Shown here: positions 7,678 through 24,727 of the stretch, one piece after another
Layout of the letters: each line of letters opens with the position of its first letter
How positions within the stretch are numbered: the first letter of the stretch is position 1
Translations under genes and position numbers: made by a program
The notes under the pieces: generated by a model
Databases searched by the model: none
What the model saw: the letters and a program-made list of their open reading frames with translations, nothing else
Told to the model about the DNA's origin: nothing
Assembly: GCA_021801765.1 (NCBI GenBank)
Contig: JAJYXO010000015.1
Span: forward strand, 1 to 32,455
Length of the DNA stretch: 32,455 bases
From: Microcaldota archaeon
Lineage (GTDB): Archaea; Micrarchaeota; Micrarchaeia; Micrarchaeales; CABMGC01
Direction: 5' to 3'

Positions 7678-7708
7678 ATTAAAATATCTATTATTAGCGT
7701 TGATCTTG

Positions 7709-9616
7709 ATGGGCCAAGAAACCGACTATAATGCATCTAAAATCCTTGTTCTCGAAGGCGCTCAAGGGATCAGGAAAAGACCTGCCATGTATATAGGATC
7801 CACAGGCGCTGCGGGCGTTCTCCACCTGCTATACGAAGTGATAGATAATGCCATAGACGAGGCGATGGCTGGCTATTGCAAGAATATAAACATACGCCTC
7901 TACCAAGACAACTCTACAGATGTCGCAGAGGTAAGCGACGATGGCAGAGGAATACCTATAGACACGATGCCCAGGTACAACAAGAGCGCGTTGGAGATTA
8001 TAATGACCACCCTGCATAAAGGCGCGAAGTTCAACAGTGATGTATACAAAATATCCGGCGGCCTTCATGGCGTGGGGCTTACTGTAGTCAATGCACTTTC
8101 GGAATTCACCGATGTCAAGGTCAGGAAGGATGGCAAGGAGTACCTTCAAAAGTTCAGCAAAGGCGTCGCAATTTCACAGCTAGAGGCGATAGGGGAAGCA
8201 GAAGGCACAGGCACAACCATAACATTCAAGCCAGATTCTGAGATATTTCACATCACCACGTTCGACTCCATGGTGCTTAAGGAGCGCCTGCTATACACGA
8301 GTTTCCTGAACAAGGGCATACGCATAACCTTGGTAGACGACCGCGAAGGGCAGCATGACGAGAGCGTATATTTCTCAGAAGAGGGGATAGCTGACTTCAT
8401 CCGCTTCCTGAACAAGGACAAGGAGACCATAACTGGAATAGTTCGATCCAAAAAGCACGAAGACTCTACCGTCGTGGAGTTTGCGATGCAGTATAACGCC
8501 GGATACGACGAGGCCTTTCTTTCATTCGTCAATGCCATAAAAACCGGAGAAGGCGGCACGCACGTCTCCGGATTTCGAACAGCACTCACACGGGCAATAG
8601 CAAATTACATTTCCAAAAGTCCCTCAGGATATAGGGATATCAGGATAACCGGAGAGGACGTTAGGGAAGGCTTATCTGTAGTTCTCTCTATCTTCATGCA
8701 GAACCCAGAATTCGAAGGCCAGACAAAAGAGAAACTAGGAAATTCTCATATCAAAACTCTAGTGGAAACCGAAGTCTATTCCCAGATTTCACGATACTTC
8801 GAGGAGCACCCCCAAGATGCCAGAGCGATAATGGAGAAGGTTATAGGTGCAGCAAACGCCAGAGAGAGTGCAAAAAAAGCAAGGGAGCTGTCCAGAAAGA
8901 GAAGTATTCTTGATGATTCGGTACTGCCTGGAAAACTCTCAGACTGCACAGAGAGCGACCCAGAAAAGACAGAGATTTTCATAGTAGAAGGACAAAGCGC
9001 CGGAGGCTCCAGCAAGGAAGGCAGAGACCGCAATACACAAGCCATACTTCCACTAAGAGGCAAGATACTCAATGTAGAAAAAGCAGGATTTGAAAGGATA
9101 TTCGACAATGCAGAGATTAAATCAATGATCGCCTCATTCGGTACTGGAGTAGGCGAAGGATTCAACCCAGAGAAGGCGCGATACAAAAAAATAATAATAA
9201 TGAGCGATGCCGATGTAGATGGAAGCCACATACGAACCTTGCTCCTTACATTTTTCTACAGGTATATGAAGAGGCTTGTTGAGCTTGGATATATCTACAT
9301 CGCGCAGCCGCCGCTATTCAAAGTGTCAAATGGCAAGAACATTTCATACTGCTATAGCGATGACGACCTCAATATAAAACTCAACGAGTTGAAAGGCGAT
9401 GCAGAAGTGCAGAGATACAAGGGCCTCGGAGAGATGAACCCCGAGCAGCTATGGGAAACTACCATGGATCCTGAGAGGCGAATACTCAAGAAAGTAATGA
9501 TAAAGGACGCGCAGATTGCGGACAGCCTCTTCTCCATACTCATGGGGATAGACCCCGCACAAAGAAGAAGGTTCCTGCATGATCATGCGGAGCAGGTTAA
9601 CTTCCTCGATATATAG
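7709..9616 (+). CDS. gyrB: DNA gyrase subunit B
   Basis: This is the ATPase/TOPRIM subunit of the type IIA topoisomerase that introduces negative supercoils. The GHKL ATPase signatures are E43-VID-N47 (EVIDNAIDEA), DDGRGIP at 77-83 and GGLHGVG at 117-123. The TOPRIM domain shows EGQSAGGSSKEGRDR from E427 and DADVDG at 500-505, then YKGLGEMNPEQLW, so the catalytic acids E427, D500 and D502 are present. The usual EGDSAGG reads EGQSAGG. A TTG at 7700 is in frame, but ATG 7709 is preferred given the TATA-like box. At 635 residues it is compact, lacking the insertion of enterobacterial GyrB. It lies seven bases upstream of gyrA. Archaeal gyrases of this type derive from bacteria. Confidence 0.97.
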   Translation: MGQETDYNASKILVLEGAQGIRKRPAMYIGSTGAAGVLHLLYEVIDNAIDEAMAGYCKNINIRLYQDNSTDVAEVSDDGRGIPIDTMPRYNKSALEIIMTTLHKGAKFNSDVYKISGGLHGVGLTVVNALSEFTDVKVRKDGKEYLQKFSKGVAISQLEAIGEAEGTGTTITFKPDSEIFHITTFDSMVLKERLLYTSFLNKGIRITLVDDREGQHDESVYFSEEGIADFIRFLNKDKETITGIVRSKKHEDSTVVEFAMQYNAGYDEAFLSFVNAIKTGEGGTHVSGFRTALTRAIANYISKSPSGYRDIRITGEDVREGLSVVLSIFMQNPEFEGQTKEKLGNSHIKTLVETEVYSQISRYFEEHPQDARAIMEKVIGAANARESAKKARELSRKRSILDDSVLPGKLSDCTESDPEKTEIFIVEGQSAGGSSKEGRDRNTQAILPLRGKILNVEKAGFERIFDNAEIKSMIASFGTGVGEGFNPEKARYKKIIIMSDADVDGSHIRTLLLTFFYRYMKRLVELGYIYIAQPPLFKVSNGKNISYCYSDDDLNIKLNELKGDAEVQRYKGLGEMNPEQLWETTMDPERRILKKVMIKDAQIADSLFSILMGIDPAQRRRFLHDHAEQVNFLDI

Positions 9617-9623
9617 TGTTTAG

Positions 9624-12023
9624 ATGCCCAAGATTTTAGATGTTGTTTTAGAAGACGAGCTGCAATCGAGTTACATAGATTATGCAATGAGCGTAATCAT
9701 AGGCAGGGCTATTCCTGAAGCCAGGGACGGGCTAAAACCGGCGCAGAGGCGAATACTCTACGCGATGTATCGCATGAACAACCTTCACGGCCAACCTACA
9801 AAGAAAAGCGCCAGGATCGTGGGGGAAGTCATTGGAAAATTCCATCCTCACGGCGACATTGCAGTCTACGACACTCTTGCCAGGATGGCCCAGGACTTCT
9901 CAATGAATCATACGTTTGTAGAAGGCCAGGGAAACTTTGGGTCAGTTGACGGTGACCCCCCAGCTGCGATGAGATATACTGAAGTCAGGTTGAGGAAAAT
10001 AGCCGAAGAAACATTGGATGGTCTTGAACAGGAAACCGTTGATATGGTGCCTAATTTTGACAACACTGAGAAGGAGCCGTGGGTGCTTCCTGGAAAGGTA
10101 CCTGCGCTTCTTATCAACGGAGCATCAGGTATAGCTGTTGGAGTAGCTACAAGCATACCCCCACACAACCTCAACGAGGTATGCGATGCGATAGTGTACA
10201 AGCTCAGAAATAAAAACGCGTCACCAGAAGATATAATGAATATAATCAAAGGGCCTGACTTCCCAACCGGTGGAATTGCGCTAATGTCACAGGCAAGCGC
10301 TAGCGGATATTTACACGGCAGGGGCCAGATGAGGATAAGAGGGAAGGCAGATATCGATGAGAAGGAGGAAAAGATAACTATCAAGGAGATACCATACAAT
10401 GTAAACAAATCTCAATTGATACAGAGCATTGCGTCCCTAACCCGCGACAAGAAGATAACTGGCATACGGGACATCAGAGATGAGAGCGATAGAAAAGGCA
10501 TGGGCATAGTCATCGAGCTAAAGCACGGAGAGAACCCAGAACAGGTGCTAAACCAGTTATACAGGCATACGCAGCTTGAAGTCACATACCCTATAATAAA
10601 CCTGGCCATAGTCGGCAAAAGCTTAAAGAGCTTAAACATACTCCAGCTGATAGACGTTTTCATAAGCCACCGTACAGAGGTCATACTCAACAGGAGCAAA
10701 TACGAGCTCAAAGTTGCCAAGGAGAAACTCCATGTGACTGAAGGCCTTCTCAAGGCGATCGCCAATATAGATGCGATAATAGCGCTTATACGATCCAGTT
10801 CAGAAACAAAAGAGGCGAAAGCGAAGATTACTTCTGGCTTCGGCCTCTCAGATAAGCAGGCAGACGCAATATTGGAGATGCGGCTCAGCAGGCTTACGAA
10901 ACTCGAAGATGATACGCTAATGAGGGATAAGGCCGAGCTGGAATCAAGAATAAGGTACCACACCGAGGTCATAAACAGCATGCATAAAGTAGACGAAATA
11001 ATCGCAGAGGAGACCTTGGATCTCAAGAAGAGATACGGAAGACCGAGGAGGACGGAGATAGCATACTCAGAAGGCAGTGCAGAAATAACAGACGAGGATA
11101 TGATAAGCAACGAGAGGGTCACCGTCATACTTACTTCCGGAGGCTATGTGAAGAGAATGGCCACAGATGTATACAAGGAACAGGCCCGTGGGGGAAAGGG
11201 CGTTATATCCATAAACCTCAAAGAAGGCGATTACGTAAAGCAGATAATAACATGCAACAAAAAGGATTACCTCATATGCATCTCAAACAAAGGCAGGGCA
11301 TACTGGCTAAAGGCATATAACATACCGGAAAGCAGCAGATACGCAGAAGGCAAGGCAATAGTTAACCTTTTGAACGTCTCAGAAGAGAGTATAATAAGCA
11401 TACTCGACATCAAGGATTTTGCAAGCTCAAAGATAGCCTTCCTTACCAAAAACGGCATTGTGAAAAAAACTGATGCATCACTCTTCTCAAAACCGAGATC
11501 TACTGGCATAATAGCCATTAGCCTTGCGGAAGGCGATGAGATAGTAGATTCGATAATCTACCAATCAAAGGCATTCCTCTTCATAGTCACTGCAAATGGC
11601 AAGTCGATAAAGTTCAATGAGGAATCCCTCAGGTCTATAGGCAGGACAGGTATGGGGGTCAGGGGAATAAGGCTTACCAATGACACAACAAGAAACATAA
11701 TAGCGGCAAACAATAACGAGAGCATACTCACCATAACTGAGAATGGATTCGGAAAGATAACTCCAATGGAAAAGTATCGCGATCAGAGCAGGGGAGGAAA
11801 AGGCGTCATCAATTTGAAGACAAACTCCAAAACCGGTAAAGTTGCAAAGGCGCTGAGCATCAGGAGCGAGAAGCACATAATACTGATAAACTCCAAAGGA
11901 ATCAGCATAACAATACCTGCCGAGTCAATAAGGATAACTGGAAGGGCCGCAAGCGGCGTAAGGCTGATGAAAGTGCCTCAGGGATCTAAAATCGCCGATG
12001 CCAGGCCTCTGGAAGAGGAATAG
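9624..12023 (+). CDS. gyrA: DNA gyrase subunit A
   Basis: The 799-residue protein has the catalytic breakage-reunion domain with Tyr118 in AAMRYTEVRL and the GKFHPHGD motif upstream. In the quinolone-determining region, HPHGDIAVYDTLARMAQ has Ile79 at the position of E. coli Ser83, while the acidic residue equivalent to Asp87 is kept (Asp83). The C-terminal half is the repeated beta-pinwheel domain that wraps DNA. The gyrase-specific box is recognisable but not the classical QRRGGKG: it reads QARGGKG (YKEQARGGKGVISI), and a later blade has the similar QSRGGKG. The pairing with gyrB and the box together favour gyrase over topoisomerase IV. Translation is probably coupled to gyrB. Confidence 0.97.
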   Translation: MPKILDVVLEDELQSSYIDYAMSVIIGRAIPEARDGLKPAQRRILYAMYRMNNLHGQPTKKSARIVGEVIGKFHPHGDIAVYDTLARMAQDFSMNHTFVEGQGNFGSVDGDPPAAMRYTEVRLRKIAEETLDGLEQETVDMVPNFDNTEKEPWVLPGKVPALLINGASGIAVGVATSIPPHNLNEVCDAIVYKLRNKNASPEDIMNIIKGPDFPTGGIALMSQASASGYLHGRGQMRIRGKADIDEKEEKITIKEIPYNVNKSQLIQSIASLTRDKKITGIRDIRDESDRKGMGIVIELKHGENPEQVLNQLYRHTQLEVTYPIINLAIVGKSLKSLNILQLIDVFISHRTEVILNRSKYELKVAKEKLHVTEGLLKAIANIDAIIALIRSSSETKEAKAKITSGFGLSDKQADAILEMRLSRLTKLEDDTLMRDKAELESRIRYHTEVINSMHKVDEIIAEETLDLKKRYGRPRRTEIAYSEGSAEITDEDMISNERVTVILTSGGYVKRMATDVYKEQARGGKGVISINLKEGDYVKQIITCNKKDYLICISNKGRAYWLKAYNIPESSRYAEGKAIVNLLNVSEESIISILDIKDFASSKIAFLTKNGIVKKTDASLFSKPRSTGIIAISLAEGDEIVDSIIYQSKAFLFIVTANGKSIKFNEESLRSIGRTGMGVRGIRLTNDTTRNIIAANNNESILTITENGFGKITPMEKYRDQSRGGKGVINLKTNSKTGKVAKALSIRSEKHIILINSKGISITIPAESIRITGRAASGVRLMKVPQGSKIADARPLEEE

Positions 12024-23665: not shown

Positions 23666-23899
23666 ATGACTGTGACAGAGAGGCCATTTGATTTATTGAA
23701 TAAATCAATAAGCAAACAGGTACTGATAAGATTGAAGAACAACTCTGAGATAAGGGGCAAGGTAACATCCTTCGATGTCCATATGAATATAGTTTTAGAT
23801 GGCGCAGAGGAAGTTGAGGACGGCGGCAGTGTCAAATCCAAGTTAGGTACCATACTGCTCAGGGGAGGGAATATCCTTTTCATATCACCTGTGCTATAA
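23666..23899 (+). CDS. Sm-like (Lsm) archaeal protein
   Basis: This 77-residue protein is a single Sm fold. Sm1 is visible as RPFDLLNKSISKQVLIRLKN, then SEIRGKVTSFDVHMNIVLDGAEE. Sm2 is KLGTILLRGGNILFISP, with the conserved RG. Archaeal Sm proteins form heptameric rings that bind U-rich RNA and are linked to RNA turnover and tRNA maturation. It is immediately followed, 12 bases later, by tRNA-Ala and may be co-transcribed with it. Confidence 0.93.
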   Translation: MTVTERPFDLLNKSISKQVLIRLKNNSEIRGKVTSFDVHMNIVLDGAEEVEDGGSVKSKLGTILLRGGNILFISPVL

Positions 23900-23911: not shown

Positions 23912-24015
23912 GGGCTCCTAGCGCAACGGTAGCGCGCCTGCATGGCATGCAGGAGGTTGCGGGTTCAAAATGATTTCTTGGAAAGCCAGGAAGTATGAAA
24001 ATCCCGCGGAGTCCA
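23912..24015 (+). tRNA. tRNA-Ala (GGC) with a 32-base intron in the T-loop
   Basis: The cloverleaf is acceptor GGGCTCC/GGAGTCC with discriminator A, D stem GCGC/GCGC, anticodon stem CCTGC/GCAGG with loop ATGGCAT (anticodon GGC), and T stem GCGGG/CCCGC. The T-loop is interrupted: TTCAAA then 32 bases (23970-24001) then T. Central helix TTCA/TGAA, with 3-base bulges AAA (5' side) and AAT (3' side), makes a bulge-helix-bulge joined to a 7-pair hairpin TTCTTGG/CCAGGAA. Cutting each bulge after its second base joins TTCAAA to T, giving a normal TTCAAAT loop and a 72-base tRNA. CCA is not encoded. Confidence 0.93.
23970..24001 (+). other. tRNA-Ala intron, between T-loop positions 59 and 60
   Basis: The intron runs from A at 23970 to A at 24001. 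Its hairpin is TTCTTGG, loop AAAG, CCAGGAA. The outer part of its helix next to the 5' bulge has mismatches, so the motif is a relaxed bulge-helix-bulge on the intron side. It belongs to the non-canonical class of archaeal tRNA introns, which lie outside the anticodon loop. Confidence 0.88.
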
Positions 24016-24021
24016 CAAATT

Positions 24022-24366
24022 CTATCGCATCCTTGTTCTACTACTCTGTACTTTTAGTGCTGTACCTCTTAGCCATTTTAGATAATTGTCGCTGCCTTTC
24101 CATATTCTGAAGGAGATTATTTCTGGAACTTCATAGCTATGGGCAGATATTATCTCCTTCTCTATTTCTTCGTACAGAGCCGCAGCCGCTTTTACAATGC
24201 ATATCCATTCCTTTTCCTTCACAACCTTTCCATTCCACATGAACGTACTCTCTACGGGTCCTAGGACCTGTGCGCACCCCGCAAGGCCTGACCTAACCAG
24301 GCGGTCAGATATATGCATAGCCTCCTTCTTCAAACGTACCGAAGTGAAAATCTGTACGAATTCCAT
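24022..24366 (-). CDS. cutA: CutA1-type divalent-cation tolerance protein
   Basis: The 114-residue protein follows the CutA pattern: ISDRLVRSGLAGCAQVLGPV, then STFMWNGKVVKEKEW, AHSYEVPEIISFRI and YLKWL. CutA forms trimers and binds divalent metals such as copper in some species; its cellular role is unclear. Position of ATG 24366, about 20 bases after a minus-strand TTTTATTTG box, suggests a leaderless mRNA. It is antisense to, and starts seven bases beyond, the end of tRNA-Ala. Confidence 0.9.
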   Translation of the reverse strand: MEFVQIFTSVRLKKEAMHISDRLVRSGLAGCAQVLGPVESTFMWNGKVVKEKEWICIVKAAAALYEEIEKEIISAHSYEVPEIISFRIWKGSDNYLKWLRGTALKVQSSRTRMR

Positions 24367-24433: not shown

Positions 24434-24727
24434 ATGGAATACAACAACAGGAGCATAGTGATAAAGGAACTCATAGGCTTGCGAGCGAAGGTTATCCTGT
24501 CATCAGATGCTTTCCAGAAGGGCATCTCAGGAGTGGTAATAGATGAAACGAAGAATGTAATCGTTATAGACGATGGGAAAGTTTCAAGGCGTGTAATTAA
24601 AAAAACCGCAACATTCAGGTTCTATTCTGGAAAGAGGTCTTTTATAGTAGACGGCAGGGAAATAAACTTCAGGCCAGACGAGCGAACTGAGAAGGCCATG
24701 CGGTTCTACAGGCTAAGGCATCCATGA
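24434..24727 (+). CDS. rnp1: RNase P protein component 1 (Rpp29/Pop4 homologue)
   Basis: Rpp29 is a protein subunit of archaeal RNase P, which trims the 5' leader of tRNAs. The 97-residue protein has the Sm-like barrel and family signature: LIGLRAKVILSSDAF, GISGVVIDETKNVIVI, TFRFYSGKRSFIVDGREI and FRPDERTEKAM. In archaea this gene normally lies between uL29 and uS17 in the ribosomal cluster, which fits its position here, although uL29 and uS3 are not upstream. RNase P here also has to process the initiator tRNA that abuts TFE. Confidence 0.9.
   Translation: MEYNNRSIVIKELIGLRAKVILSSDAFQKGISGVVIDETKNVIVIDDGKVSRRVIKKTATFRFYSGKRSFIVDGREINFRPDERTEKAMRFYRLRHP

Follow-up and report, generated by a model that had tools for sequence, protein, structure and literature searches.

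A BHB-type intron in the T-loop of a tRNA-Ala(GGC) gene, in a micrarchaeal genome encoding a predicted epsilon-2 splicing endonuclease

The contig analysed here (the window, 32,455 nucleotides of a Micrarchaeota archaeon) carries at 23912-24015 of the forward strand what is almost certainly a functional tRNA-Ala(GGC) gene, whose BHB-type intron at position 59/60 would be cut by the resident epsilon-2 endonuclease and whose exons would be joined by RtcB. An essential tRNA that is apparently missing is present, interrupted in its T-loop. When the unspliced window was given to ARAGORN, the tRNA-Ala(GGC) was missed and only tRNA-Met and tRNA-Lys were called; the same was found with Rfam at the gathering cut-off. 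A permissive Rfam scan of the locus gave 23.8 bits, which is below the threshold, and placed the 3' end wrongly. Micrarchaeal tRNA counts, and the completeness and codon-reading claims drawn from them, are too low when default ARAGORN or Rfam is used.

Anatomy of the locus

The gene consists of an exon of 58 nt, an intron of 32 nt and an exon of 14 nt, with the junction at 59/60. Its layout is GGGCTCC TA GCGC AACGGTA GCGC G CCTGC ATGGCAT GCAGG AGGTT GCGGG TTCAAA [ATGATTTCTTGGAAAGCCAGGAAGTATGAAAA] T CCCGC GGAGTCC A, where the brackets mark the intron. The 5' exon (23912-23969, +) holds the 5' strand of the acceptor, the D arm, the anticodon arm with the anticodon GGC at 23944-23946 (+), the variable loop, the 5' strand of the T-stem and T-loop bases 54-59. 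It matches intronless relatives at 100% over bases 1-58 and folds as a cloverleaf once spliced. The intron occupies 23970-24001 (+), and the 3' exon (24002-24015, +) provides T60, the T-stem 3' strand CCCGC, the acceptor 3' strand GGAGTCC and the discriminator A73. Removal of the 32-nt insert leaves a predicted junction that reads ...GGGTTCRAATCCC..., and in the spliced 72-mer ARAGORN called a tRNA-Ala(ggc) whose stems are all paired and whose acceptor has the Ala-specific G3:U70 pair. The identity and anticodon given in the original prediction, which was made from the letters alone, are thus borne out.

The tRNA is preceded by an ORF of 77 aa (23666-23899, +), Sm/LSm-like by inspection, which ends 12 bases before it, and is followed by a convergent gene of the CutA1 family (24022-24366, -; Pfam PF03091, E 2.6e-28). 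Just downstream lies a gene for RNase P subunit p29 (24434-24727, Pfam PF01868), which heads a ribosomal protein cluster. Two adjacent ORFs of this archaeal genome, at 7700-12023 of the window, resemble, by inspection, subunits B and A of DNA gyrase.

The insert in relatives

As a query, the spliced 72-mer was run against 148 genomes from the genus, family and order to which this genome belongs; inserts were scored by a sliding mismatch count, and orthology was judged by sequence identity. The EF-1alpha gene adjoins the tRNA in the window and was not near it in the relatives examined, which ruled out gene neighbourhood as an orthology anchor. About half of the order's genomes match the spliced query only through base 58-60, after which an insert follows. 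Of the 110 tRNA-Ala(GGC) genes read in the order, 39 are intronless; in the other 71 this site is occupied by an insert with a length of 13-48 nt and a median of 30. In four relatives (G062, G068, G071, G076) the intronless gene is identical to the predicted spliced product at 72/72 bases, which agrees with the TTCAAAT loop that splicing had been predicted to restore. The sequence and length of the insert vary freely, while the YGAA and the 3-nt bulge are retained; in the sister species (G001) the tRNA body is 98% identical over 59 bases and the intron can hardly be aligned.

These observations bear on the idea that the mature RNA retains the insert and so has an enlarged T-arm. The insert does form a stable hairpin, but its length range of 13-48 nt, its lack of sequence conservation outside the splice motif, and the existence of intronless orthologues with a normal T-loop make this reading next to impossible, and it was rejected.

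Splicing of the gene is also favoured by its copy number. The genome assembly, which is 77% complete, has a total of 828,196 bases on 62 contigs. A second intact tRNA-Ala(GGC), which the original prediction had named, together with non-expression of this locus, as evidence against it, was searched for and none was found in the assembled genome, although a copy may lie in the missing part. In three single-contig relatives that bear the intron, no other Ala(GGC) was found among the matches. In 13 genes of the window, 34% of the Ala codons are GCC or GCT. In archaeal decoding the GGC tRNA is their reader, and an unspliced tRNA could not serve them. Given the single-contig relatives and this codon usage, the gene must work.

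The rival view, that the locus is a pseudogene or a gene newly broken by a small insertion while another tRNA does its work, draws on the destruction of the T-loop by the insert and on the chance that the other copy is absent from the 77% complete assembly. It is rejected as highly improbable: the exon stems are all perfect, the exons equal those of intact relatives, the same site is filled in 71 genes spread over two families with a conserved splice motif, and the single-contig relatives are without another Ala(GGC).

For 53 genomes of the family, a tree built on EF-1alpha requires at least six changes of intron state. Intronless genomes (G024; G062 and G056; G042) are nested within well supported intron-bearing clades. 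The exactness of the intronless genes makes loss of the intron by clean excision the simplest reading for the nested genomes, and gains are possible too. A positive role for the intron has also been considered, such as protection of the T-arm, a common integration site, against mobile elements or a part in the timing of tRNA modification. Such a role would be compatible with splicing and is no alternative to it. The location of the intron in the tRNA's 3' half, its persistence across the order through these changes of state and the many tRNAs affected speak for it; the repeated exact absence in close species shows that the intron is dispensable, and we regard the role as unlikely. Together, the 71 intron-bearing and 39 intronless versions form a natural data set on intron gain, loss and recognition by a broad-specificity endonuclease.

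Junction and splice motif

The window by itself leaves the junction ambiguous by up to 3 nt, with an unchanged spliced product, because the first exon and the intron each end in AAA. The relatives settle the position. In 14 of them the last base of the intron differs (the ends read AGT, ATT, ACT or TAT), and only a junction at 59/60 restores the RAAT of the intronless genes. The junction is therefore 59/60, and the 32-nt intron of the original prediction is found at that site.

The central helix is formed by TTCA (T54-A57, exon; 23964-23967, +) and TGAA (intron; 23996-23999, +); its four base pairs span the exon-intron junction. It is flanked by two 3-nt bulges, AAA on the 5' side (AA/A, 23968-23970, +) and AAT on the 3' side (AA/T, 24000-24002, +). 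From the geometry and the junction analysis, cuts are predicted after 23969 and after 24001. Pairing of T54-R57 with the intron's YGAA gives four pairs in 60/71 introns and three in the remaining 11/71, whereas the full four-pair helix (TTCR/YGAA) arises in 1.8% of shuffled inserts. Base 57 and its intron partner covary in tRNA-Ala(GGC) (A:T 51, A:C 0, G:T 2, G:C 11; Fisher p 1.0e-10, a significance inflated by the kinship of the sequences). Over a set of 94 distinct T-loop introns from many tRNAs the counts are A:T 75, G:C 11, A:C 6 and G:T 2 (p 1.2e-8, likewise inflated by kinship).

Directly behind the bulge, an inner helix averages 3.4 pairs in the 71 introns against 0.7 in shuffles. It ranges from 0 to 11 pairs across relatives, is short or absent in about one third and is missing in the shortest introns (13-16 nt). 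In the window, the pairs T-A and G-U behind the 5' bulge are followed by an A/G mismatch before a 9-pair hairpin, ATTTCTTGG-AAAG-CCAGGAAGT (23973-23994, +), which was found by folding. When the complete precursor is folded to minimum energy, the central helix stays open; the case for this helix is a comparative one. With the central helix open in that fold and a weak start of the helix behind the 5' bulge, the motif of the window appears to be a relaxed, not a strict, BHB. The predicted helix and bulges stand, and their description is refined accordingly. Across the relatives, the motif appears to span strict BHB to BHL.

Splicing enzymes of the genome

A three-unit (epsilon-2) endonuclease had been predicted in the same genome, and a gene for a protein of 384 aa was found there (G000:C45; L228:234-1388). 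Residues 11-384 of the protein align to residues 14-387 of 4FZ2 (ARMAN-2 EndA; also PDB 9W2K) with an E-value of 3.8e-149. Two stretches each of PF01974 and PF02778 were recognised, corresponding to C- and N-terminal domains. The catalytic Tyr, His and Lys of ARMAN-2 and the specificity-loop residues Y160 and K161 are conserved in the alignment. By homology, the protein is assigned as a full-length counterpart of the ARMAN-2 three-unit (epsilon-2) splicing endonuclease, of the alphaN-alpha-betaC type. Loop residues Y160 and K161 of ARMAN-2 EndA were reported to aid the cleavage of BHB and BHL substrates (PMC12397907). A gene for the ligase RtcB is also present in the genome.

A route to the mature tRNA can be proposed from these genes and the motif. 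In the precursor, the intron's 3' end region would pair with T-loop bases T54-A57 (TTCA/TGAA), and the helix so formed would stack on the T-stem. The endonuclease of this genome, presumably a homodimer, would cut once in each 3-nt bulge, after 23969 and after 24001, its specificity loop permitting relaxed motifs away from the anticodon. RtcB would then ligate the exons and restore the loop TTCAAAT. We infer that the gene is transcribed, cleaved at the predicted bonds and ligated in this way.

T-loop introns elsewhere in the genome and the phylum

At least three further tRNAs of the genome have T-loop introns. Inserts at 59/60 were found in Ser(CGA), Ser(GGA) and Leu(CAA), each of which yields a tRNA by in-silico splicing. 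The tRNA-Ser(CGA) (G000:C27; L225/L318, -) has a T-loop intron of 29 nt and an intron of 15 nt in the region of the anticodon stem and loop; the tRNA-Ser(GGA) (G000:C42:4842-4895; L326, -) has one of 41 nt and another of 12 nt at the canonical 37/38; the tRNA-Leu(CAA) (G000:C53; L224/L327, +) has a T-loop insert of 14 nt with a weaker central helix (2/4 pairs). A loose T-loop intron pattern gave 18 matches in the own genome and 18 in the control, i.e., no enrichment. Its matches served only as a list of candidates, each of which was assessed on whether the T-stem paired and on the outcome of in-silico splicing.

Some other tRNAs of the genome were noted along the way. Two copies of tRNA-Leu(TAA) (L222 and L223; G000:C9, C25) have similar extra sequence in the D arm, probably D-loop introns. 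Another locus (L227; G000:C10:9050-9224) looks like a tRNA-Trp(CCA) with a long intron that contains a TGATGA-like box; archaeal pre-tRNA-Trp introns with such boxes guide 2'-O-methylation. Two tRNA-Ile(TAT) genes (L017 and L018; G000:C23, C35) of equal score and length represent either duplication or assembly redundancy.

Of 295 genomes searched in the phylum, 130 (98 in the order, 32 outside) match the strict signature GGGTTCRAA N9-39 YGAAAATCCC, and its reversed control had 0 matches in the 295 genomes. When 30 signature loci were spliced, 27 were called as tRNAs, compared with 2 unspliced. Isotype calls include Arg, Lys, Ser, Ala, Gly, Leu, Pro and Asp; where a second, long intron is present, some of the calls are unsure. 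It seems somewhat more likely than not that the Micrarchaeota hold a phylum-wide, fast-changing population of 59/60 introns in many isotypes, which are repeatedly and exactly absent from close relatives and which the epsilon-2 enzyme makes possible. If true, these introns would be the DPANN counterpart of the intron expansion in Thermoproteales and would hide tRNAs from standard annotation. The original prediction was right in placing the intron at 59/60, an unusual position; the intron is no rarity here, being one of a set of T-loop introns found across the phylum.

Comparison with known systems

Archaeal BHB tRNA introns at 59/60 were reportedly described by Sugahara et al. (2008) and Chan et al. 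(2011). For T-loop introns across the Micrarchaeota, no account was found in the literature searched; Fujishima et al. (2011), which lay outside that search, reportedly treats the ARMAN endonuclease and its tRNA introns. Introns at 59/60 and broad-specificity epsilon-2 enzymes have already been published, and the intron of the window is a further case. Archaeal introns at 59/60 have been listed (PMC4090602), BHB motifs in the T-loop and the breadth of the epsilon-2 enzyme have been reviewed (PMC6379350), and tRNAs with multiple introns were noted in ARMAN-1 and ARMAN-2 (PMC4033280). Non-canonical introns can be handled by tRNAscan-SE 2.0, whose models were trained on other phyla (PMC8450103).

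The known archaeal BHB introns at 59/60 share with the present one the position, the central helix of 4 bp and the two 3-nt bulges, and they are substrates of the splicing endonuclease, as predicted here. The earlier examples come mainly from Crenarchaeota and Nanoarchaeota, whereas this one lies in a tRNA-Ala(GGC) of Micrarchaeota and is common across the order. The closest parallel on the enzyme side is ARMAN-2 (Ca. Micrarchaeum acidiphilum), whose epsilon-2 enzyme has the same architecture and loop residues as the resident enzyme and accepts introns with relaxed BHB or BHL motifs (PMC12397907, PMC6379350). The permuted tRNAs of Thermofilum pendens, which are joined at 59/60, use the same T-loop splice site; there, however, the halves of the gene are inverted, whereas here they stand in normal order and are separated by an intron (PMC3218864).
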